From Pseudomonadota bacterium (GTDB lineage: Bacteria > Desulfobacterota > Binatia > Binatales > Binataceae), in NCBI GenBank assembly GCA_021324755.1, contig JAJPIL010000009.1, positions 113,109 to 177,108 of the forward strand: a stretch of 64,000 nucleotides of DNA, given 5' to 3'. The notes beneath the pieces were generated by a model. It was not told where the DNA came from and made no database searches. It was given only the letters and a program-made list of their open reading frames with translations. Positions 1,476 to 31,707 of the stretch are shown here, piece after piece. The position numbers and the translations under genes were made by a program. Each line of letters opens with the position of its first letter. The stretch's first letter is position 1.

Positions 1476-2558
1476 CTAACTTAGGACGGATAGCCAAGGC
1501 GGGCTTAGGCGACTACCTTTGCCACGAGAAGGAGCGCTTTTTGAAATTCGTGCCGACCCGCTCTCAGCGAGAGTTGCATCTATTAGCTCCAAAATAACGC
1601 CCTCACGCAAAGCCCAGTCGCTGATCCGCACGGTGCGCTGCCCAAAGGCGTCCATTAAAGCTTCGGCGACTACCGCTCCAGCTACAATTACGCGCGCTCG
1701 GCGTTGGCTCAACCCGGACATTCGCTCGCGCTCGGCTACGGTCTGAGCGCACAAAAGCGCGCGTAGACGCGAAAGCTCTCGCCGCTCGAGCTCGCAACCG
1801 TGAATATCAGCGGGCGCTTTACCCGTGCGCCGCGCGTGAGCCATCGCCGCAAGCCGCCGAAACGTTCCCGATGTAGCGATCATAAGGTCTGACTTCACGC
1901 CAAAAGCCCTTAACTTCAAGGGTCGCAACCTCTTGTCGACGTAAGTTCGCAGCGCGCATATTTCGGTTGGCTCAGGAGGATCCGACTCGATAAATTCCTC
2001 GGTCATCCTCACTGCCCCGAGCTTAAGGCTACTTTGCCACTCGATTTGTCCGTCGTAGGCTTGGACCACTTCTACGCTGCCACCACCGATATCGGCGACA
2101 AGCACGCGTTTGCCCGCCAGATCGAAGGCACTCGATACGGCTCGAAAAATAAGCCTTGCCTCGTCGTGTCCCGAGATTACCGCGACATCTACGCCAAGCT
2201 CGGTTCGAGCCCTTTGGATAAACTCAGCTCCGTTTGCAGCTTCGCGAATCGCGCTAGTAGCAACTGACAAAACGTACTCTACACCTTCCCTGGCAGCCGA
2301 AGCGGCCATCGCTTTTAGGGTTCGCAAGCCGGCCGCCATGACTTGAGGCGACAGGCGCCCCTCGACGAGTGTCCCGTACCCTAGACCCACGGCCTCGCGG
2401 TAGCGGCCGACGATCCTGAATCCGCCTTTGCGGATTTTGGCTATGACCATGTGGATCGAATGGGACCCGACGTCTATCACAGCCACCTTGCTCGGTGGGC
2501 CTTGATGCGACCTCGACGTCGCGCCGTCCAGGGACATCCATGACATCGCGCGGACCAT
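1476..2558 (-). CDS. Ppx/GppA family phosphatase (exopolyphosphatase-like)
   Basis: 360 aa; VAVIDVGSHSIHMVIA, SVATSAIREAANG, VADIGGGSVEVV actin-like ATPase-fold motifs of Ppx/GppA. Confidence 0.92.
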   Translation of the reverse strand: MVRAMSWMSLDGATSRSHQGPPSKVAVIDVGSHSIHMVIAKIRKGGFRIVGRYREAVGLGYGTLVEGRLSPQVMAAGLRTLKAMAASAAREGVEYVLSVATSAIREAANGAEFIQRARTELGVDVAVISGHDEARLIFRAVSSAFDLAGKRVLVADIGGGSVEVVQAYDGQIEWQSSLKLGAVRMTEEFIESDPPEPTEICALRTYVDKRLRPLKLRAFGVKSDLMIATSGTFRRLAAMAHARRTGKAPADIHGCELERRELSRLRALLCAQTVAERERMSGLSQRRARVIVAGAVVAEALMDAFGQRTVRISDWALREGVILELIDATLAESGSARISKSAPSRGKGSRLSPPWLSVLS

Positions 2559-2766
2559 AATTTACTAACTATAGCAACTTGCGCGTATCCTTCGAGCGTG
2601 CGGCCTTGCTAACGCAAGCGCAAGCAAGGCGCAGGTTCGGACGTGGATCGCAAATTCTTTCTCGTTTGAAGCTCGCGCGCCCAAATGCGACAATCTTAAG
2701 CTGGCGCGATCGCCGCTCATCTTACGTTCGCGCCTTACAAGGGTCCGCCCACCAGGGGGTACTCCA

Positions 2767-3819
2767 ATGCAACGATCGCAGGAAGCTTCGACGACCTTGC
2801 CACAGGTGGAGAGCGCCCTGACCACGCCTAAGACAGCCATCGCCAGCACATTGAACCAATTGATGCACAAGCGCCTGCGCAAGTTCGTCGCCCAGCTGCC
2901 CAAGGTGCTCAGCGAAGAACATGCCGAAGCTGTACATGACCTGCGGGTAGCTAGCAGGCGGCTCCAACAAGTTATCGCTGCCCTGTTCCCCAAGCAGCGC
3001 TCGCCCCAGGCGCAAGAGGCGGTTCGTACACTTAAGCGGGCGCGGCGCGCAGTAGCGAAATGGCGGGACTGCGACGTCCTGCTCGAACTGGTCGACCGCA
3101 AGCTCAAGCGCCTGCGCAACGATGAGGAGCGCCTGGCATGGCAGTTTGTGCGCGATTACTTGCGCGAAAAGCGACTTAAAGCTATCGCACGAGCAAGAGA
3201 CCGACTTGCCAGCCGGCGGCTACTCATGTTGGCGCAAGCGGTCAAAGAGCTCGAGCACCAAGCGCTTGAGACGTCCCGGGACGGGGCTCAAGGCCGGTCG
3301 CTTCATCCCACAATGGTAGATGGTGTGCGACGCGCGTGGGACTCCTGGCGCGAGGCGCTAGCATTGGCAGCTAAAAACGCCGACCCTGAAAGTCTTCACG
3401 CTTTTCGCATCCAGACTAAACGCTTGCGCTATCGGCTCGAACTAGCGCTCGAAGCCGGCACAGCAAATGCCTCATCCGCCCTGGCATGGCTGCGACATCT
3501 CCAGGACAGCCTCGGTCGGCTGCATGACCGCGACGAACTTGCTCGCATTGCGTCCAAGGCGCTCGCTCAACCCGACTTTCTGCTGAACCATCCTCGCGCT
3601 GCGAGCCAAATTCTACGAAAACTCGCGCAACAAAAGGTGGCTCAACGAGTCGAAGCCCAAAGGCTTATCAGCGAAGCGACGAAATGGGCTTCGGCGAATC
3701 ACTTGAGCGACCTACTAAGCGCAGAGGACCAGCGGCACAGTGGCACCGAGCTATCCGAGCAACCAGACAAAAGCGCGCAGTCATCTGCCCAGGAAGCTAA
3801 CATCAAGCCACAGTCTTGA
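2767..3819 (+). CDS. CHAD domain-containing protein
   Basis: 350 aa; EHAEAVHDLRVASRRLQQVI and ESLHAFRIQTKRLRYRLELA, the His-rich helical CHAD repeats. Confidence 0.93.
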   Translation: MQRSQEASTTLPQVESALTTPKTAIASTLNQLMHKRLRKFVAQLPKVLSEEHAEAVHDLRVASRRLQQVIAALFPKQRSPQAQEAVRTLKRARRAVAKWRDCDVLLELVDRKLKRLRNDEERLAWQFVRDYLREKRLKAIARARDRLASRRLLMLAQAVKELEHQALETSRDGAQGRSLHPTMVDGVRRAWDSWREALALAAKNADPESLHAFRIQTKRLRYRLELALEAGTANASSALAWLRHLQDSLGRLHDRDELARIASKALAQPDFLLNHPRAASQILRKLAQQKVAQRVEAQRLISEATKWASANHLSDLLSAEDQRHSGTELSEQPDKSAQSSAQEANIKPQS

Positions 3820-4058
3820 CGTCGTTAGGCCGGAAAAACAGAGAAGAGAACAACAGGAGCGCCAAGCGCGTTACACCCCTTTTCGCCCCTGTGACAAGAC
3901 TTCCAGTACTGCCGTTGGCGTGTCTAAGTTTATGCCCGAGTTTTTACGGAGAAGCCTACACGACCCCGCAAGTTAATTAGCCATGACCTACGACGAACAC
4001 CACCGGCAACGGAGGACAACGCTCGAAGGCGAGCGCGCGCCAAAGATTCGGCCTTATT

Positions 4059-4559
4059 TCACTTTGCCAGCCGGCGCAGATGGCGCTGGGTCAACATCCA
4101 GCAAAGCTGGCCCGATCCAGGCTCGATACGTCGGGGAAGCTCGATCGCTACACAAGCGCCTTTTTTCAGCCTAAGGCGCAGCCTGTCGCTGGACCCAGTA
4201 AGCAGAAGCGAGACGAGCTCGCCCAGTTGTGGCTCGTGGCCGACCACCGCCACGCTTTCATTACGGGCGTGGGGCGCAAGCGCCGTCAGAGCTTGCGTTG
4301 CTGGCACGCCGGTAGCCAAAGCCTCTACGACCTGCGGCGAGACATCGTCGCCATAGGCTTCCGCGATTAGCTTTGCGGTTTCAACCGCACGTACCAGCGG
4401 ACTTGTCAAAATCACGTCGAACTTAAGCCCCAGCGCCGCCATCCCCAGAGCAGCTTCTCGCATCTTTATCCGCCCGCGCGGGGTTAGCTTTCGAGCCTCG
4501 TCTGTCGCGCCGGAGCCAAGTTTTTCTGCCTGCGCGTGGCGCACTACATAGACCATCAT
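4059..4559 (-). CDS. sixA: SixA-like phosphohistidine phosphatase (histidine phosphatase superfamily)
   Basis: MVYVVRHAQAEKLG (RHG-type motif), ILTSPLVRAVETAKLIA, VAVVGHEPQLGELVSLLL. Confidence 0.9.
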   Translation of the reverse strand: MMVYVVRHAQAEKLGSGATDEARKLTPRGRIKMREAALGMAALGLKFDVILTSPLVRAVETAKLIAEAYGDDVSPQVVEALATGVPATQALTALAPHARNESVAVVGHEPQLGELVSLLLTGSSDRLRLRLKKGACVAIELPRRIEPGSGQLCWMLTQRHLRRLAK

Positions 4560-4900
4560 GGACGCATCGACGCTTTATAAACGGCGCTCGAACACTCTAC
4601 ACCCCATTGCAACGCTCGTCCATCCAAGCGCCGCATATCATACGTTCATCGACATTCACCTTTCAACCGCCGCACATCCAACTCCCACGAGTTAGGCGCT
4701 GTGAGTCGAGCTCCAAACTCAGCGCTTTATGCCGCCATCTTGTAACGCCAGAACGGTCAGCATCCAGCTTTTATCTGCGCAGTCGCAAACGCTCTAATTA
4801 TGGCGGCTACGGCGTACGATTTGGCAAGCTTCGGGCGCGATTTTTTCTTTAGGCTCCTTACGAGTCGGCGACGGTATACCTGAAGCTCGACTGTTTGGCT

Positions 4901-5659
4901 TCAGTCTTGCGGCGCGTTCTCGGGAGAATCGTCCTCGGGCTTATGACTTCCAGCCGCGCGCAAGTATTCCAGAATATGCGCCCGAAGATCGTTCTGGACC
5001 TCCTCGATCGAGCGGCGAGCGTCGATCGTGATGAAGCCGAATTCGCGTGCAAGCCGCCTGTATTCCTCTATGAGACGGCTTTGATAGCGCACGAAGGAGT
5101 CGAACAAGTCAGTGCCCAGCGCAAGATGCATCCCTGACTCCCAGTAATCCATCCCCTTGCCCTGCACGACGCGAGGAATCAGCGTCTCTACGTCGATGTC
5201 GAGATGAAGCACGAGGTCGGGCAAAAGCGCCATGCCAAAAAGCCCGCGCGTCCATTGCGGGTCGGCACCCATCACGGTATTGCGCGCAAACGCGGTGTAC
5301 ATGTAGCGGTCAGCGATCACGATAAAGCCCGCTTGCAGAGCCGGCAAAATTTCATGTTCGAGCCGATCGGCAAAGTCAGCGGCGTAAAGCAAACTAAACG
5401 TCGTGACGGTGAGCTGATGGCCGGCCTTGGCCTGATTGATGGTTTCGTGCAGCAGCGGAGAGCGAGTCCATCCAGTATTGCTTACCGCATAACCCTCCAC
5501 TTCCAGCCAAGGCCGCAGCAGTTCGATCTGGGTGGAACGCCCTACCCCGTCGGTGCCCTCGATAACGATGAGATGCCCGCGTAAAGGTTTCTGCGGCAGA
5601 TAGGGCATCCCATATCCGTACCAGGTTTTACCGCGTTTGCCAGACGATGCCATTGCCAT
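4901..5659 (-). CDS. thymidylate kinase-like P-loop protein, copy 2 (Walker-A Lys to Arg)
   Basis: HLIVIEGTDGVGRSTQIELL, IADRYMYTAFARN; overlaps the upstream tmk-like ORF by 32 nt. Confidence 0.85.
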   Translation of the reverse strand: MAMASSGKRGKTWYGYGMPYLPQKPLRGHLIVIEGTDGVGRSTQIELLRPWLEVEGYAVSNTGWTRSPLLHETINQAKAGHQLTVTTFSLLYAADFADRLEHEILPALQAGFIVIADRYMYTAFARNTVMGADPQWTRGLFGMALLPDLVLHLDIDVETLIPRVVQGKGMDYWESGMHLALGTDLFDSFVRYQSRLIEEYRRLAREFGFITIDARRSIEEVQNDLRAHILEYLRAAGSHKPEDDSPENAPQD

Positions 5660-19815: not shown

Positions 19816-21201
19816 CTAGGCTGCCGCCCCCTGCGCGTGCGAAAGCTCGCGCACGATCGCTCCGACAAAAGCCTTGGCGTCGCCGAACAACATCAGAGTC
19901 TTGTCGAGATAGTAGAGCTCGTTATCTACGCCCGCAAACCCTGGGCTTAAGCTTCGCTTTATCACCATCACGGTGCGCGCTTTGTCCACCTCGAGAATAG
20001 GCATGCCGTAAATGGGGCTCAAGCGGTTGGTGCGCGCGGCAGGATTAGTGACGTCGTTGGCACCGATGACCAGCGCGACGTCGGTCTGGGGAAATTCGGG
20101 ATTAGCTTCGTCCATGTCGAGAAGCTTGTCGTACGGAATGTCGGCTTCGGCCAACAACACGTTCATATGTCCGGGCATCCGTCCGGCAACCGGATGGATG
20201 GCGAACCTCACATTTATTCCACGCCGAGTAAGAAGGTCGTAAAGCTCCCGTACGCGGTGCTGCGCCTGTGCCACCGCCATGCCATAACCCGGTACGATTA
20301 TGACCGAGGAAGCGGATTCGAGAATTGCGGCTGCGTCCTCGGGGCTGGCGCTGCGTACGGTCCGGTCCTCGTGGGCGTCGGCGCTGGCCTGCACCTGACC
20401 GAATGCGCCAAAAAGCACGTTAGTGAATGACCGATTCATCGCCCGACACATAATGACGGACAGGATAAAGCCCGAGGAGCCGTCCAGCGCGCCTGCAACG
20501 ATTAAAAGCTTGCTGTTCAGCACAAAGCCCATCGCCGCCGCCGCAAGGCCAGCGTACGAATTGAGCAAGGAGATCACGGTGGGCATGTCGGCACCGCCGA
20601 TCGGGATAATCATCAAAACCCCGAAGACAAGCGGTATGACCACAATCAACGGGAAAAGGTAGCTCGCCTCCGGGTGAATGATGAGATAGATTCCGATTAA
20701 GATAGCGGCCCCAAGGATGGAAAGGTTGACAAAGTTCTGGCCTCGATAAGTAATCGGGCGCTGGGGCAAAACCTCCTGCAGTTTGCCAGCAGCCATCAAA
20801 CTTCCGGTAAACGTAAGCGAGCCGAGTATTACCTCCATCACCAGGGCGAACATCATGAAATGGGCGATCTTGGGAACTTCTAAGTAATATTCGGCCGTGC
20901 CGACTAGGGTTGCGGCAAAGGCGCCGAAGGCGTGACTCAGGGCCGTACGTTGAGGCACGGCTGTCATCTGTACTAGGCCAAGCGGAATTCCGATCGCGCC
21001 GCCAATTACAAATGCGATAAATATCCAACGGTAGCTCACTATCTCGGGGTTTAGTAGCGTGGCGCCGATCGCGAGCGCCATCCCGATTTCGCCGGCCAGG
21101 ACGCCGCGGCGAGCCGTACTCGGCGCGCTCAACCAGCGCAACGAAAGAATAAACAGCGCCACAGCAAGGATATAAGCAACTTGGATAAATTGCTCAATCA
21201 T
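19816..21201 (-). CDS. pntB: NAD(P) transhydrogenase subunit beta
   Basis: VIIVPGYGMAVAQAQHRVRELYDLL, HPVAGRMPGHMNVLLAEADIPYD, VIGANDVTNPAA. Confidence 0.97.
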   Translation of the reverse strand: MIEQFIQVAYILAVALFILSLRWLSAPSTARRGVLAGEIGMALAIGATLLNPEIVSYRWIFIAFVIGGAIGIPLGLVQMTAVPQRTALSHAFGAFAATLVGTAEYYLEVPKIAHFMMFALVMEVILGSLTFTGSLMAAGKLQEVLPQRPITYRGQNFVNLSILGAAILIGIYLIIHPEASYLFPLIVVIPLVFGVLMIIPIGGADMPTVISLLNSYAGLAAAAMGFVLNSKLLIVAGALDGSSGFILSVIMCRAMNRSFTNVLFGAFGQVQASADAHEDRTVRSASPEDAAAILESASSVIIVPGYGMAVAQAQHRVRELYDLLTRRGINVRFAIHPVAGRMPGHMNVLLAEADIPYDKLLDMDEANPEFPQTDVALVIGANDVTNPAARTNRLSPIYGMPILEVDKARTVMVIKRSLSPGFAGVDNELYYLDKTLMLFGDAKAFVGAIVRELSHAQGAAA

Positions 21202-21494
21202 TGTTGTTTCCGCTCCCCGCGCCGAAACATGCGTAGCATCCGGTCGGTGATCAAAAATCCTCCGACCACGTTACTCATCGAGGCGATAACGGCGAGCGTT
21301 CCCAAGACGGTACCGAGTGTGCTTTGCTGGCGACCGGCGATTACGATCGCTCCGACGACGGCGATCGCGTCGAGTGCGTTGGTCAACGACATCAGCGGAG
21401 TGTGCAAAAGGGGCGAAACCCGGCGAATCACCTCGAACCCAACAAAACCGGCAAGCACAAAGACATAAAGGCTTGAAATCATGTCGGAACTCAC
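21198..21494 (-). CDS. pntAb: NAD(P) transhydrogenase alpha subunit, membrane part
   Basis: FVGFEVIRRVSPLLHTPLMSLTNALDAIAVVGAIVIAG. Confidence 0.95.
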   Translation of the reverse strand: MSSDMISSLYVFVLAGFVGFEVIRRVSPLLHTPLMSLTNALDAIAVVGAIVIAGRQQSTLGTVLGTLAVIASMSNVVGGFLITDRMLRMFRRGERKQQ

Positions 21495-22705: not shown

Positions 22706-23532
22706 GCGAATCTGCCAAAGTCAGCACGTTTAAGAGCAATTGTAAGTCACTTCCCCACGTGCCGCGCTCTTCGGTAACCCGGCGCCCGACGCCTTTTTCT
22801 TGACCAATCGACTACCGCCGTCAGATGACCGTGTATGATGGCCTCTTTAAGACTCGAGCCACGGTATTAAGAAACCTCAACTCTGAAGACGCAAATCGAC
22901 GCATTTTATTTGACTCTAGCCGATACTTCGCAATCTCATTCTTCGCAGTCTCAGACGTCGAACACCCCGGATAGCCCGCACCACGCTCGAGCGCCCAATG
23001 CTCGCCGTCGCTGGGCGGGCTTAAAAAGCGTTAGCCTCTCGCTCCCGCCACCGGTTCGAGCAACCTTATTTCGCTCGTTTACTCTCCAAAGTTGCGTACT
23101 CCCAAAACTCAATCGTACGCAGGGCCAATTGTTAGGTTAATAGGGTCAGTGGAACTGGGCTTGTTCGTGACGCGGGCTTCGTAGCGCTGGATTTGCGAAC
23201 GCTCGTTGTCATCAGAGGCCGACCTGGCGCGGTTGAGCAGCTTGCCACACGGGCAAAAAGCCAGACGCTATTTTCGGCCGAAGCTCCCCTGATTGAGCTT
23301 TAAATGATAAGGACAGCGGTTATTTCCTTCTTACTTCTTTAGCGCGAGACAAGATTCCCTTGCCCCTGCGCGGCTCAAGATTTGGCCCGAAATGTGCTTG
23401 TCCTTAGCTCAAGGCTGAGTCGCGCTAGAGAGAAGATGTTGCATAATTAAGTCGAATATATTAGTTTAGCGGTACTAATGGCATTTAGCTGGTGACACGA
23501 GTCACGAATACTCGGGGGCGACAGCGCTCAAT

Positions 23533-24039
23533 ATGGAAACAACACGACACGTCGCGGCGAATCAAAAAGATACAAATAGGGCAGCGGAGCGTCGCCAAGT
23601 GGTGCAGAGCGAAGTTTCTGGGCTTGAAGCAGATATCTTGCTGCCTAGCCAGTTCTATGCACTACGAGGCGGGCGATGCTTTAGCGGCGAGCAGCGCCTG
23701 ATGCTCGCGATTTTAGCTGATGCGATCAATATTTTTCAGGGATGCCACTGCTCGGGGCAGGCCACTAAAAGCCGCCTTTTTCGTGAAGCGGAGGAGTGGA
23801 TCTTTGGTTCTGACGACCGTTGGCCCTTTTCCTTTGTAAACGTCTGCGAGGCTCTAGGCATCGAACCACAAGCGTTGCGCAAACGCCTGCGTGCCTTGGA
23901 AGAAGAAATTCGCTCCGGGGTGCGCAGTGCAGAGTCCTTTCGTCTTAGGCTTAAGGAGTCGAACCGCGCTCAACACATGACCGTAAACCGCGAACGCACA
24001 CATCGACGTCGTCAGTGTTCCTTTGCAAGCCAACACTGA
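23533..24039 (+). CDS. hypothetical protein, paralogous to 25733-26245
   Basis: 168 aa; LLPSQFYALRGGRCFSGEQRLMLAILADAI...LFREAEEWIFGSDDRWPFSFVNVCEALGI shared with the second copy. Confidence 0.75.
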   Translation: METTRHVAANQKDTNRAAERRQVVQSEVSGLEADILLPSQFYALRGGRCFSGEQRLMLAILADAINIFQGCHCSGQATKSRLFREAEEWIFGSDDRWPFSFVNVCEALGIEPQALRKRLRALEEEIRSGVRSAESFRLRLKESNRAQHMTVNRERTHRRRQCSFASQH

Positions 24040-24534
24040 GGAGAATCTGCTCTACAAAGTTCGGGCTACCTTAGGCAGAGAGGTTTCTTGCGTAAGTCTT
24101 AGCGTGTGAGCAGTCGGCGCAAGGGCTTGCTCCGAGTTCGTACCTAAAAGTTTCGTTGAAGAACTTTGGCAAGCTTGCTCAAATCTCATGCGCCAAGAAA
24201 GCTAGCACCACACAGGCGAAGTTTTTCTCTGGCTCCTGCTCTTTATAGGGTTACCGTCGGAGGTTCGACGGCCTATCCCAAGCGCCAGCTAAGCGTGATT
24301 ATTGTGCCGCGGACCCGACGAGAGACCAAAACTCCTACTTAAATCGCTTAGAACCGATACTGAAGGGCAAGCCGACTTGATTGCATCGCTCAGTCGTCTC
24401 TCACTGGTAACTGCAAGCGTCTAACAAAACCAGCGCTTTCCTGTATGAGCCCGGATAAGGGTACCAGGCACGAGTCAGTTGACTCGCTGTCGAGCGGCTA
24501 CCTATCCTAGCGGTATTGCGAGGAAACTGCTGCC

Positions 24535-25026
24535 ATGAGGATGCTTGTGCCTCATCTGAGCATACGGAGGGAAATCGACCAAAATTTGGTGGCATTTTTT
24601 CGTCGCCACAACCAAAAGTACTTTAATCGCGCAATCTCACAACTTTGTAAGTTTTACAGGGTAAAACGACCCAAAATAGAATGGTATGCTTATATCGACT
24701 GGGGCAAGACAGCCGGAAAGACCTATGAGAACGGTGAAATTCATCTAGTCCATCCGCTTTACTGGAAGCGCGGGCGAATATACAACCGCGAGCGGATGTG
24801 GGTTCAAACTGTATATCACGAATTAGGCCATTATCTTTTGTGGAGCGACCCGGAGAAGAAGGCCGAGGCCTTTTGCCGTAGAATGGTTTATGGATTGCGC
24901 CAATCAGCTCGCCGCAAGGCCTCGACCGCGTCTCGCGCAAGCTCCGGGCAAAGGCGGCGGGCTGAAAAATCTAGCAGTCGGCGAATGCGCAACCGGTCTC
25001 GCAGAGTGAAGCGCGCTGCAGCATAA
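24535..25026 (+). CDS. putative zinc metallopeptidase-like protein (HExxH) with Arg/Lys-rich C-terminal tail
   Basis: 163 aa; MWVQTVYHELGHYLLWSDPEKKAEAFCRR followed by about 50 residues of RR/KS/SR-rich sequence. Confidence 0.75.
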   Translation: MRMLVPHLSIRREIDQNLVAFFRRHNQKYFNRAISQLCKFYRVKRPKIEWYAYIDWGKTAGKTYENGEIHLVHPLYWKRGRIYNRERMWVQTVYHELGHYLLWSDPEKKAEAFCRRMVYGLRQSARRKASTASRASSGQRRRAEKSSSRRMRNRSRRVKRAAA

Positions 25027-25038
25027 TGCACAATACCG

Positions 25039-25587
25039 GTGAGCGAGAAAACACGCCCTGAATACGGCTGGTGGGTCGAGACCAGCGTAAGGAAACCCAA
25101 ACGGAACGAGTCACAAAAGGCTAAGTCGGCTTTGCCCGTCGGCATGAAGTTCTATGCCGCAGCGGCCGACTATGATCAGGAGCTAGCCAAGGAGCATCTG
25201 ACCGACAACAACCTAAGGCTGGCTCGGTCAGCCAATCCGCCGTTGGGAGGATGGGCTTACGTCCGATTGACCGAAGAAGAGTCGCCGCAAGAATTAATCG
25301 ACCGGCTACGCCGTCAATTCCCGCTTCCAGCACAAGCCCGGGGCGTGATTGTCGACCACGGGCGAGTGGTACGCCTACTGATCTGCGGTCCTCAGTTCGA
25401 GGATTGGATGATCGATATACGGCTGGCCGAAGAGAACTCGGTGGACGTGTACGTGTGGGGTGTGTTGTACCGCGAGAAGGTGTTTCGACGACGCTCAAGT
25501 GCGCTTAAGCAAGCGCAAGCCTGGGCGCGAAATTTAATCGACTTCCCTCCTTCCCGTCACGAGCTTTTTCGTGGTTCGACGTTATAG
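25039..25587 (+). CDS. hypothetical protein
   Basis: 182 aa, begins (GTG) 12 nt after the HExxH gene, protein-like composition. Confidence 0.65.
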   Translation: MSEKTRPEYGWWVETSVRKPKRNESQKAKSALPVGMKFYAAAADYDQELAKEHLTDNNLRLARSANPPLGGWAYVRLTEEESPQELIDRLRRQFPLPAQARGVIVDHGRVVRLLICGPQFEDWMIDIRLAEENSVDVYVWGVLYREKVFRRRSSALKQAQAWARNLIDFPPSRHELFRGSTL

Positions 25588-25732
25588 GCCCGTTTGAACC
25601 GCCGGTGCCTGACAGCGGCAGACAATCGCAAGCGGCAAAAAAGCCAGTACTCGCAGATCGCCCTCTAGCCGCTGGGGCATCTTTTGCGCCACTTTGCCGA
25701 CTTTGGCTCGAGACCATCGGCTTTATGCCTTT

Positions 25733-26245
25733 TTAAGCACGAGCTTCCTGAAGGTGCGCTGCTTTGGCCGTCTTACGCGTTTTAGCCACAGCTCGCCTTG
25801 CGCTTTTCGGACGCGACGGTTGCGTTTGGGCGGTTTCCTGCGTTGGAGCGCTCGGCTGGCGCTCTACCGACCCAGAGGCAGTCTTTCGCTCCTGTTCGGC
25901 TAACTGCTGAAGGCGCCGTTCCTTCCACATCCGCAGGCCCCGCCGCATATACTCAGGGTTAATGTCCAACATCTCGCAAACGTTATCGAAGGAGAAAACC
26001 CACCGTTTGTCTTCCAGATTGATCCACTCCTCGGCATCCCGAAACAGCTTTTGGCCTTTACTGCTAGTAGAGCCGAGATACTTCATGTAGCACTCGATCG
26101 CGTCTTCCAAGACGCTCAAGACGAGCCGCTTTTCGCCTTCCAGCAGATGCTTTCGCCGCATCGCATCGAAGTACTGGACCGGCAAAAGCGTATCCGGTTC
26201 GAACAAGCCTGGAAGGCGTTCATCCAAAGTCTCTTTTTCCTGCAT
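25733..26245 (-). CDS. hypothetical protein, paralog of 23533-24039, with basic tail
   Basis: LLPVQYFDAMRRKHLLEGEKRLVLSVLEDAI...KLFRDAEEWINLEDKRWVFSFDNVCEMLDINPEYMRRGLRMW; ATG at 26245 preferred over the track start 26293 (AGGGG SD-like sequence). Confidence 0.8.
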   Translation of the reverse strand: MQEKETLDERLPGLFEPDTLLPVQYFDAMRRKHLLEGEKRLVLSVLEDAIECYMKYLGSTSSKGQKLFRDAEEWINLEDKRWVFSFDNVCEMLDINPEYMRRGLRMWKERRLQQLAEQERKTASGSVERQPSAPTQETAQTQPSRPKSARRAVAKTRKTAKAAHLQEARA

Positions 26246-26363: not shown

Positions 26364-26585
26364 TTAATCTTCGTCCTCGTTCTCTTCCCGGTATATGTCT
26401 AGCCAAGCCATCTGGATCGCCTCCAGCACGGCCTCGTTGGAAGCTGCCGGGTCATCGTCAAACTCATCTAGGTCAAGTACCCATTGCCGAAGATCAGTAA
26501 ATCGCACCTCGAGCGGGTTTAAACCTGGATGGTTTTCAGCTAACAGCTCGGCGATTTCTTCTGCCTCATCCCATTTGAGTCCCAT
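26364..26585 (-). CDS. iscX: Fe-S assembly protein IscX
   Basis: 73 aa; LKWDEAEEIAELLAENHPGLNPLEVRFTDLRQWVLDLDEFDDDP...LEAIQMAWLDIYREE. Confidence 0.95.
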   Translation of the reverse strand: MGLKWDEAEEIAELLAENHPGLNPLEVRFTDLRQWVLDLDEFDDDPAASNEAVLEAIQMAWLDIYREENEDED

Positions 26586-26687
26586 CTTTTTGGCACCTCC
26601 CCGATGAGCGCAAATCAGAATTAAAAATCAACCTAGTCGGATAAAATCAAATCCATCTTCAGCCTGCGGTAACCTACGTTCTGGCTA

Positions 26688-28541
26688 TCAGGAAGAAATT
26701 TCGTCCACAGACTTATGTTCCAGCGCCTGTTTGATCGCCCGGTCCATAATTCGATGGGCGAAGGGAGTGGTGAGCTCGTTGAGCTCGTCCGTCAACCGCT
26801 TGATAGTCTCTCTGTCGGCACCCTCGTCAAGGGCAGCGCGCAGCTTCTGTGCTACCGCCTCTGCTTGGCTCCGCTCTTCGGGCTCGATCAAGTCCGGAAA
26901 TTCGTTGAGCTGTTTAGCGAAGGCGTTTAGAATCTGCTCGGCCTCGGTGCGGGCCACGATACGTAAGCGCTCTTCGATATCTTGCTCGCCGTAATCAATC
27001 GCCTCCTCAAGCATTCGCTCGATTTCCTCTTCGGTCAGGCCGTAGCTTGGTTTGACTTCGACCGAATGCTCGAGTCCTGTGCGCTCATCTCTGGCGGTCA
27101 CGTTGAGGATACCGTTGGCGTCGATCATGAAGGTTACTTCGATTCGTGGCACGCCAGCCGGCTGCGGCGGGATCGGGCCAAGTTTGAAACGCGCAAGGCT
27201 GCGGCAATCACGAGCGAGCTCGCGCTCTCCTTGCAACACGTGAATATCGACGAAAGTCTGATTATCGACGGCGGTCGTAAACCGCTCCTTTACACTGGTC
27301 GGTATGGTCGTATTGCGATGGATAAGACGTTCCATCACGCCACCCATCGCCTCGATCCCCAGTGACAAAGGCACAACATCAAGCAGCAGCACGTCGTCTC
27401 GCTTGCCCATCAGCACACCCGCCTGGACTGCCGCCCCCATCGCAACCACCAAATCCGGATCGAGCGAGCAAAGCGGTTTTCGTCCGAACAACTCTTCGAC
27501 CGCTCGCTGAACCAGCGGAACTCGGGTGGCTCCTCCGACAAGCACTACCGCGTCAATCTCTCCTGGCGCGACGCCCGCGTCCTTGAGCGCCATCGAACAT
27601 CGCTCGATTGTCCGGTCAACCAGCGGCTTTATCCTGCGCTCGAACTCCTCACGGCTCACTACTCGCTCGATTCGCGTGCCGTCGAGCTCGAGCTCAACTT
27701 TCGAAACCATCTCGGCACTGAGCCGCCGCTTGCAACTTTCGGCGGCAGCCCGAATCAACGGCCAAAACCGACGATCATGCGCTAGGCTTTCTGGCAGTCC
27801 CTCGGTGATAAACTCGGCAAGCGCCTGATCCATGTCGTCGCCGCCCAGATGTGTATCACCGTTCGTGGCCAGAACTTCAAAGATTCCCTCCTTGATGCTC
27901 AAAATAGAAATGTCGAAGGTTCCGCCGCCAAGGTCGTACACGGCGACCTTACCGCTTGCCATCTCGCCCAGACCGTAGGCCAGCGACGCCGCGGTCGGTT
28001 CGTTCAGCAACCGCACGACCTCGAGGCCCGCAAGCCGACCGGCATCCTTGGTTGCTTGGCGCTGAGCGTCGTTAAAGTATGCGGGAACAGTTATAACCAC
28101 CCGCTCGACTTTCTCGCCGAGCGCGGCCTCAGCCCGGCTCTTAAGAGCGCGCAAAATGTCGGCTGAAATTTGAGGCGGAGTATAGACACGCTCACCGACC
28201 CGGAACTTAACCACGGGCCCACTTAATTCGGCAAAGGAATAGCGTCGGCGCTCTTCAGGGGCAAGTTCGTCTCCCCCCAGCCCCATGTAGCGCTTGACCG
28301 AGCGAATCACGACAACCTTATTTTCGTCGCTGCCGGCCGAGGCTTCACTTTGACTAAACTCCTGCTCAAGTTCCACCGCTCGCTGGCCGACAGCCAAGGT
28401 TCCGTTTGGCCCTAGCGCAACCACGGAAGGGAGAAGCAACGCACCGGTTTGAGGGTCTGGGATGATCCGGGGTTTCCCTTCTTCCATGACCGCGATAAGA
28501 CTGTTGGTAGTGCCGAGATCGATTCCGAAAATTCGACTCAT
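26688..28541 (-). CDS. hscA: Fe-S protein assembly chaperone HscA (Hsp70 family)
   Basis: [77 protein letters not shown] context. Confidence 0.96.
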
Positions 28542-28667
28542 ATGCGAAGCAAACCTTCTTTGGATTTAACCCAGCGCTTGAGCTTGGCCCGAAGGCTGGT
28601 AGGGAACGATATGTTCGGGCAAGGCCTTTTTCTGGCTTGCGCCCCCGGCGCTAGCCCCAAAGAAAGG

Positions 28668-29309
28668 CTAGCGCGGAACCGACGGTTCTATCTCGCGATC
28701 GATATCGCGCAACAACGTACGCAGATAGGCTATTCGAGACAAAAGCGCCTTGAGCTCAGCGAGAAGTTCTGCCTGACTGGCGCTCTTTTGGTCCCATTTC
28801 GCAAAGTTTGCCACAAGCTGTTCGCGCGCCTGGTCCATCTCGCGTTGGGCGGCCTCGCGGCTTTGAGCGATAGTTTCTAAAAGCGATTGCCGCGAAGATG
28901 GCTCCTCAGTATCGCGAAGCTCGGCCAGTTGCTCTTGTACCTCGAAAACGAGAGCCGCAAGCTCGGAAGGCACCTGTTTGTTGTCCTCGGCCAGCTTCGT
29001 ACCGTGAAGTTCAAGCCAATAGAGGCCACGGCTTACCGGATCCCGCAAGGTGCGATAAGCGCGTGTAACAAGCGCGGTGCTTTTTAGACTGGCCTCGCGA
29101 ACTTCTTGAGGACTATTGGCAAAGCGGTCAGGATGAATTCGCCGACTTATCTCGTGGTATATCCGCTCAAGCTCAGCTGGTTCAAGCGACAAACGACGCT
29201 CGAGACCGAGAGCGGCAAACAGGTCAAGGTCGACCGGCAAAGGACCCGTGCATTGCTCGCACACGATTTTTTCGCTTTGTTCGCAGCCGCATGAGGGGCA
29301 GCGTATCAT
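28668..29309 (-). CDS. hscB: co-chaperone HscB with N-terminal Cys-rich zinc-ribbon-like segment
   Basis: J-domain with HPD (EISRRIHPDRFANSPQEVREASLK); MIRCPSCGCEQSEKIVCEQC N-terminus. Confidence 0.93.
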   Translation of the reverse strand: MIRCPSCGCEQSEKIVCEQCTGPLPVDLDLFAALGLERRLSLEPAELERIYHEISRRIHPDRFANSPQEVREASLKSTALVTRAYRTLRDPVSRGLYWLELHGTKLAEDNKQVPSELAALVFEVQEQLAELRDTEEPSSRQSLLETIAQSREAAQREMDQAREQLVANFAKWDQKSASQAELLAELKALLSRIAYLRTLLRDIDREIEPSVPR

Positions 29310-29355
29310 AAAACAAAACGGTCAGGCCCCAGGACCTGCCGATCCCACTTAAGCC

Positions 29356-29673
29356 CTAAACGGAGAACGACTCGCCACAGCCGCAAGAGCGCTTAACGTT
29401 AGGGTTCACTAACCGAAAACCCGCCGACATAAGCTCTTCGGCGTAATCCAGAATCGAGCCGTTCAAGTAGAGAAAGCTCTTTTTGTCGACAATCAACCGA
29501 GCACCGTCGTGCTCAAAAACCCTGTCACGCTCTCCCGGTTGGTCGATCTCCATGCGGTACTGCAAGCCGGAGCATCCTCCACCGACGACCTTGACTCTAA
29601 GGCCGGAGCCTGGCGCTCTATCGGCGGTAAGCGCCTTTATCTTTTGAACAGCGCTCTCCGACAACGAAATCAT
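29356..29673 (-). CDS. iscA: A-type Fe-S carrier (IscA/ErpA family)
   Basis: VVGGGCSGLQYRM ... NPNVKRSCGCGESF conserved Cys pattern. Confidence 0.94.
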   Translation of the reverse strand: MISLSESAVQKIKALTADRAPGSGLRVKVVGGGCSGLQYRMEIDQPGERDRVFEHDGARLIVDKKSFLYLNGSILDYAEELMSAGFRLVNPNVKRSCGCGESFSV

Positions 29674-29697
29674 ACGCCGAACAGAAGCTGCGAAACG

Positions 29698-30111
29698 TTA
29701 AGCGGCCTCCTCCTTTTTCTCAGCTGGCTTGATTCCCTTTCGCTTCTGCCAGTCCGCTATAGCGGCCTTGATCGCGTCCTCGGCAAGCACCGAACAGTGT
29801 ATTTTTACCGGTGGCAGATTCAGTTCTTGAACAATTACACTGTTCTTTATCGCCAAAGCCTCTTCAATTCGCTTGCCTTTGACTAGCTCGGTCACATAGC
29901 TCGAGCTTGCAATTGCGCTGCCACAGCCGAAGGTCTTGAACCGAGCATCCTCGATAACTCCGTCGTCGTTGATCTTCAGCTGCAGCTTCATCACGTCGCC
30001 ACATTCGGGCGCGCCCACGATCCCCGTTCCAACGTTGGGCTCATCCTTGGGGAAGCTCCCCATATTACGAGGATTCTTGTAGTGGTCGATAACCTTGCTT
30101 GAATATGCCAT
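29698..30111 (-). CDS. iscU: Fe-S scaffold IscU
   Basis: YSSKVIDHYKNPRNMGSFPKDEPNVGTGIVGAPECGDVMKLQLKI, FKTFGCGSAIASSS, LPPVKIHCSVLAEDAIKAAI. Confidence 0.97.
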   Translation of the reverse strand: MAYSSKVIDHYKNPRNMGSFPKDEPNVGTGIVGAPECGDVMKLQLKINDDGVIEDARFKTFGCGSAIASSSYVTELVKGKRIEEALAIKNSVIVQELNLPPVKIHCSVLAEDAIKAAIADWQKRKGIKPAEKKEEAA

Positions 30112-30157
30112 ACGTCTACCCCTGCCTAAATTCGGTGGTCAAAACAATAGAACAATG

Positions 30158-31378
30158 TTAGTCGCGTCGCCAGGCCACGCTCTTCAGGTCGATACCTTCT
30201 TTGGCCATTTCGTAAAGCGGCGACATATCGCGCAACCGATTGACCTCCTGAGCGACTCGCTCGACCACGTAATCGACCTCCTCTTCGGTGTTGAACCGAC
30301 CAAGGCCGAAACGGATCGAGCTGTGCGCCAGCTCATCGTCGATGCCCAAAGCACGGATTACGTAGGATGGCTCGAGAGTGGCCGAGGTACAAGCTGAACC
30401 GGAGCTCACCGCCACTTCGCTGATTCCCATCAGCAACGACTCACCTTCGACGTAGGCGAAGCTCAAATTAAGGTTCCCCGGCAAACGCTCGGTCGGATGA
30501 CCGTTCAAGTAGACCTCATCTAGCCGCTCAAAGATGCCCGCCTGCAAACGGTTGCGCAAATCGGTCAACCGCTGCATCTCTTCCGCCATCTCCTGGCCGG
30601 CGATCTCGCATGCCGCGCCAAATCCGACAATACCCGGAACATTAAGCGTTCCCGACCGCAGACCGCGCTCATGCCCACCGCCATCGATCAGCGGTGTCAG
30701 GCGCACGCGCGGCCCCTTCGACCGCACATAGAGAGCACCTACACCTTTCGGACCGTAAAGCTTGTGGGCCGAAAGCGACATCAAGTCGATCCCGCATTTT
30801 TCAACGTCGACGGGCACGTGTCCGACCGCCTGAGTAGCGTCACAATGGAAAATAACGCCTTTCTCCTTGGCTATTTTGCCAATCTCGGCGATCGGATGAA
30901 TCGTCCCGATCTCGTTATTGGCGAACATAATAGAGATAAGCACGGTCTTATCCGTTATCGCCTTGCGCACGTCGTCGGGATCGACCATCCCGTACTTGTC
31001 TACAGGCAAATAAGTGACGACCGCTTTTCCAGCGCGCTCAAGCGCCTTGCAGCTATCCAAAACCGCCTTGTGCTCGGTAACGCAAGTGATGACGTGGTTG
31101 CCCTTTTCCTTGTAAAACTCGACCACGCCCTTTATCGCCATGTTATCGGACTCGGTTGCGCCGCTGGTGAAAATAATCTCCTTGGGCTTAGCGTTAATAA
31201 GCGCGGCGATCTGCGCCCGAGCCTTGTCGACCGCCTCTTCGGCTTCCCAGCCAAAACTATGGTTTCGGCTGGCAGCATTACCGAATTTGGTCGTCAAATA
31301 CGGCATCATCGCCTCCAGCACCCTCGGATCGAGTGGTGTGGTGGCATGATTGTCCATGTAAATAGGTAGCTTTACCAT
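30158..31378 (-). CDS. iscS: cysteine desulfurase IscS
   Basis: [59 protein letters not shown]. Confidence 0.98.
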
Positions 31379-31707
31379 CTTGTCCGTTACCTCTTGCTGG
31401 GCGTTTTGTAGCGGCCAGAATTAGTCGACCTATTTGGTATACTATTCTTACCTACCCGTCCTGTCAAGGATAACTTAAACCTCTTCAAATATGAGTTTGG
31501 GCCGTCTAGCCAGGCGGCAGGTCTTAACAAGAGCTCGTCCGCTTAATTAATCGCAGCACTCATTTGATTAAGGCTGCAAAACTACTTTCTCAAGACCTAG
31601 ACCTCTCGCGCTTAAGGCATGACGGCCGCTTTGCGCAACTCAAACGGACGCAAGCTTATACTTAAATGACTACGCAACAGCAAACGAAAGCTTTTAACTC
31701 AGCCAGA

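Follow-up and report, generated by a model that had tools for sequence, protein, structure and literature searches.

The described systems closest to the genes considered here are the phage late regulators RinA/Ltr, the Rrf2 regulators IscR/RisR, and sigma-70 region 4 together with generic helix-turn-helix (HTH) domains. The late activators RinA and Ltr are described as lying directly before terS-terL (PMC13123087), and the RisR palindrome of Myxococcus is T(t/g)GAC-N7-GTCC (PMC9973013). The protein family to which two genes of the window, copies A and B, belong compares with each of these only in part. Like RinA/Ltr its members are small (about 130 aa) and regulator-like, and one phage relative, L252, has the same position before terS-terL; however, that exact position is seen on this one phage contig only, the Binatia copies lie in cellular operons, and the likeness is one of size and gene position. 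Like IscR/RisR the family is encoded in or near isc clusters and consists of predicted HTH proteins of similar size, but A and B have no Rrf2 domain (PF02082) and no three-Cys cluster site, and an Rrf2-type operator at the isc promoter suggests an Rrf2 protein separate from B. The HTH residue pattern and an Arg at position 16 are shared with sigma-70 region 4 and generic HTH domains, from which the family differs by the long loop that links helix 1 to helix 2 and in reaching no curated cut-off.

The window is the whole 64,000-nucleotide stretch that was analysed, part of a 3.07 Mb genome of the class Binatia in which our search found two family copies, A and B alone. The original prediction of a paralogous, convergent pair about 1.7 kb apart with two genes inside is borne out, as both open reading frames and the shared motifs are present as described, and the proteins are 42% identical over 106 aa (BLASTP, E=2e-27), far past chance. 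The stop codons are 1,694 bp apart, with two open reading frames in between that share one strand (Table 1), and the orthologs of B begin MQEKE, which supports its ATG start at 26245. The pair did not arise by recent duplication: the family tree places A and B in different clades, and the only DNA-level inverted repeats between them are coding matches just 27 and 16 nt long. Judged by sequence, the two are true paralogs that diverged anciently. Basic tails had been noted in both, and the two proteins do have pI values of 9.3 and 9.1; with a median pI of 7.0 across the family, however, such tails are no family trait. The 827-bp gap from pntAA to A (22706-23532) has no convincing open reading frame, and TTGCAA-N17-TATGGT-like sequences can be seen by eye in front of the orthologous A genes at the position of A's putative promoter.

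Table 1. Positions of the features discussed, in window coordinates, and the viral contigs carrying family relatives.
Feature	Position	Strand	Remarks
pntB	19816-21201	-	follows pntAB
pntAB	21198-21494	-	follows pntAA
pntAA	21533-22705	-	divergent from copy A in the window's clade; sequence and gene order
Putative copy A promoter, TTGCAT-N17-TAGTTT	23439-23467	+	by eye
Copy A	23533-24039	+	168-aa family member; heads the A-HExxH-unknown block
HTH-like 20-mer of copy A (FVNVCEALGIEPQALRKRLR)	23833-23892	+	alignment with B; weak Pfam HTH_1 match
HExxH metallopeptidase-like protein	24535-25026	+	HELGH, Arg-rich tail; in 48/57 class genomes
Uncharacterised gene	25039-25587	+	182 aa, GTG start; 12 bp past the HExxH gene
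Copy B	25733-26245	-	170-aa family member; ends the isc operon
HTH-like 20-mer of copy B, residues 86-105	25931-25990	-	AlphaFold helices and HTH residue pattern
iscX	26364-26585	-	PF04384 3e-28; TIGR03412 1.2e-27
hscA	26688-28541	-	isc gene order in relatives
hscB	28668-29309	-	isc gene order in relatives
iscA-like gene	29356-29673	-	same cluster as PF01521 protein in related loci
iscU-like gene	29698-30111	-	position and conservation; named from gene order
iscS	30158-31378	-	first gene of the operon; isc gene order
RisR/IscR-type operator over isc promoter -10 (TATACCAAATAGGTCGACTAAT)	31420-31441	-	conserved in Binataceae
Profile-supported phage relatives	L180/L249, L181/L250, L182, L183/L251, L252-L254		family profile
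tblastn-only phage relative	L184

No Pfam or NCBIfam model covers the family and the majority of its members match no Pfam family whatsoever, and yet every one of the 57 Binatia genomes searched contains it. Copy counts per genome, a check that the original prediction had proposed, range from one to 17 across the class (Binataceae 2-10, median 5; other families of the class 1-17, median 8). The whole-genome distribution searches sampled the one phylum, in which nine of 285 genomes outside the class gave a match, mostly one weak copy, and four such loci have contexts other than isc. Among 89 members Gln24, Leu41, Trp74, Cys90 and Arg101 are near-invariant or, for Arg101, invariant; Cys52 is common, and residue 108 is basic. 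Clades of the tree keep their own stable neighbours (a Lon-N protein, pheT-HU-surE, GCS2-YkuD, pnt, isc and the ispG block). The family, uncatalogued, numerous in one class, attached to conserved operons and found in phages as well, is the part of the finding that merits attention. We note that the pheT-HU-surE clade sits on the opposite strand in the gap between pheT-HU/IHF and surE (L209, L211, L223, L242 and L243).

An AlphaFold prediction made from 25 family sequences gives a core (residues ~40-120) that is all helical with a pLDDT of 96-98, and includes helices at 62-76, 86-92 and 97-127 with pLDDT about 96-98; the secondary structure of this model can be read as containing a helix-turn-helix. 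Residues 86-105 obey the classical HTH residue rules (position 5 small, position 9 Gly/Asp, positions 4, 8, 10, 15 and 18/19 hydrophobic) in 88/88 scorable members and no other segment comes close, these criteria having been chosen post hoc, after the sequence was seen. The invariant Arg101 and the basic residue 108 also speak for an HTH. Eight of the 15 family names among weak Pfam matches are HTH families, three of them from A alone; HTH_1 is weakly matched at residues 100-126 of A (1.7e-4, under the cut-off), and among the cut-offs shown, no member reaches that of a Pfam HTH family. Profile searches of the PDB with the family gave nothing significant, and a Foldseek search of the PDB returned no significant match (best E=1.5), although sigma-factor or RNA-polymerase-holoenzyme chains make up seven of its 39 weak matches (E 3.8-9.5, none significant). 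The helical, DNA-binding-like C-terminal half claimed by the original prediction is thus retained as a predicted HTH with its residue pattern but not as a significant PDB fold match, and the lack of fold similarity to DNA-binding domains that was named beforehand as counting against it was in part what we found.

Relatives of the family are encoded on eight metagenomic viral contigs, seven recognized by the family profile and one by tblastn alone, and the seven match the Binatia family in profile-profile comparison with E=1.8e-33. PHROGs gave the family itself no confident match, and identified terL near three of the phage relatives and a tail sheath gene near a fourth. In L252 the order is RuvC-like resolvase, family gene, terS and terL; in L251 terL is the third gene downstream of the family gene, in L250 it is nearby on the other strand, and in L180 and L182 the family gene is not directly upstream of terS/terL. 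Among predicted viral structures, the folds closest to that of the family belong to uncharacterized proteins of Caudovirales (E=8.5e-4 and 1.5e-3), and searches of named-phage collections with two phage relatives found nothing. The L180 relative and the pheT-HU-surE clade share 46% identity, and exchange of the family between phages and Binatia is therefore likely; if its members are regulators, this would offer an example of regulator exchange between phages and hosts. That Binatia acquired a phage late-activator-like HTH family, which then expanded into class-wide, operon-bound local regulators, with one copy made permanent in isc and another tied to a zinc-protease block, is a tentative extension of this scenario that we regard as possible rather than probable.

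We consider that A and B are most likely small HTH regulators of phage type, which became numerous in Binatia and for which DNA binding is the part that we infer. They would be old and diverged members of a Binatia-rich HTH-like family that also occurs in tailed phages, each acting as a small DNA-binding transcription regulator in the style of phage late-gene activators and serving the operon with which it is inherited; A would regulate its own block and the divergent neighbour, and B the genes co-expressed with isc. The parts of this explanation concerning the family and its synteny are ones in which we have high confidence. For action of A and B as DNA-binding regulators we judge the chances to be even, and the explanation as a whole (a Binatia-rich HTH-like family, two conserved units, regulators) we think somewhat more probable than its converse. 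A family-specific conserved operator was sought and none was found. If the family members are regulators, they may explain a large part of local gene control in an uncultured and widespread soil class.

The alternative that fares best is that the family is an HTH-shaped protein-protein adaptor and that B aids Fe-S assembly, possibly via Cys90 and Cys52. Cys90 is present in 88/89 members and Cys52 in 56/89, and B lies inside the isc operon, where a DNA target for it is not evident, as no gene downstream of B is conserved across the Binataceae and the operator upstream of the operon is of the Rrf2 type. Cys90, however, corresponds to position 5 of the HTH, at which one expects a residue that is small and buried, and most copies lie away from Fe-S assembly genes, with family members occurring also in phages; we regard an adaptor as unlikely.

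A regulatory role for B has to be considered in the light of its position in the isc operon. B comes last, after iscS-iscU-iscA-hscB-hscA-iscX, in every Binataceae locus that we examined, and this isc-B order recurs in one further Binatia locus (L062). The isc operon thereby gains a new conserved gene whose role is directly testable. The operon in the window (26364-31378, leftwards) includes iscX, and iscR and fdx are absent from its genes. In several other Binatia families a family gene lies inside isc clusters, where it is often immediately preceded by an Rrf2 gene and followed by one for an M17 aminopeptidase. That B is a dedicated isc repressor or activator that replaced IscR in the Binataceae would fit both its fixed place at the operon end and the absence from the Binataceae operon of the Rrf2 gene that directly precedes the family gene elsewhere. 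But every Binataceae genome retains Rrf2 genes outside the isc operon (two to seven; three in the window's genome, each protein with three candidate Cys ligands), and upstream of iscS an automatic match in 25 of 26 Binataceae loci finds TTTGAC, a spacer and TATA-T, overlapping ATACCTAnCAGGTCCACTAAT, with promoter and operator seen by eye in the 26th (L032). Several of these promoters contain the exact RisR palindrome, lying over the -10, and in the window's genome the isc operator is a single site genome-wide at two or fewer mismatches. The conserved RisR-type operator and the presence of Rrf2 genes in every genome make an Rrf2 protein the likely regulator of isc; the operator weakens the case for B as an isc repressor and, with the Rrf2 genes elsewhere, for B as a substitute for a lost IscR, and we find this role for B improbable.

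Copy A, in turn, is the first gene of a block whose other two members are widely conserved. The gene following the HExxH gene is present in 51/57 class genomes and is adjacent to the HExxH gene in most that have both; its product, conserved across the class, has no Pfam match and has an invariant LTDxN motif and invariant Trp residues. A and the HExxH gene lie no more than about 2.2 kb apart in 24 of 35 Binataceae, often with A directly 5' of the HExxH gene, and in several of these genomes a CoA-transferase gene is inserted between the two. Among 32 orthologs of the HExxH protein H95, E96 and H99 are invariant, as are Glu107 (+8 from the last His of the HExxH), K109, A110 and F113. A third zinc-ligand His downstream of HExxH is a feature of SPRTN/Wss1, and no such conserved His follows H99 in the 32 orthologs, for which reason we do not place the protein in the SprT class. 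It resembles SprT/SPRTN/Wss1 in its HExxH, its basic tail, a SprT-like Pfam match (PF10263, 20.7 bits, under the gathering score of 25.6; seen in 15/32 orthologs with E up to 0.1) and best Foldseek matches to Wss1 and selecase, but the latter are not significant (E=1.4).

By analogy with ImmR-ImmA or DdrO-IrrE, A and the HExxH protein might be a repressor and its protease, and both the proximity of the two genes and the invariant Glu after the HExxH would suit such a pair. A is nevertheless missing where other Binatia families, and at least six Binataceae, have the HExxH gene and the gene following it, and the weak Pfam and fold matches indicate SprT/Wss1 rather than ImmA/IrrE; we think this pairing doubtful indeed.

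Comparison across the Binataceae provides a context for the arrangement in the window. The ispG gene is beside A in 23/35 genomes, usually divergently, and beside the HExxH gene in eight more (31/35 in sum). Of the remaining four, three carry the block in the interval from pnt to isc-B, namely the window's genome and two from the sister genus g16, and the fourth (G031) has no ispG on the available stretch. The predicted cassette bracketed by a pair therefore does not hold as a unit, since the A-HExxH-unknown block is separate, and the proposed synteny check finds the four genes together only in the window's genome (genus g1) and g16. Their presence in three independent MAGs argues against misassembly. 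What looked like a bracketed cassette is thus two conserved units that have come to lie side by side in one clade. We infer that the ispG-side block would have relocated between pnt and isc in the common ancestor of g1 and g16, and this move would have turned the block and the isc-B unit into neighbours.

The A/B pair does not form a unit in function, and the patch, although it had been described as accessory-looking, is not accessory, since B is core and fixed to iscX and all four genes are conserved in the Binataceae. A mobile or recently duplicated element is highly improbable: GC at 23-25 kb is slightly lower (51-53% vs 57%) and the position between pnt and isc is limited to g1 and g16, but sister-genus orthologs of the four genes are ~60-73% identical, and the simple form of such an element is refuted by the tree, the synteny and the absence of long flanking DNA repeats, with no match in plasmid or named-phage collections searched with B or in plasmids searched with the product of the gene following the HExxH gene. 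A defence system was also considered and rejected, PADLOC matches being at chance level only.

Among the other loci, we note that in family f4 (L221 and L231) a family gene lies directly 5' of pntAA-pntAB-pntB on the same strand, and that it is not an ortholog of copy A, though A is divergent from the pnt operon. In another Binatia family two family copies flank a glutamate-cysteine ligase gene and an S24-like gene (L176 at 1955-5484, and also L203 and L207), which is a second instance of a paralog pair placed around other genes.
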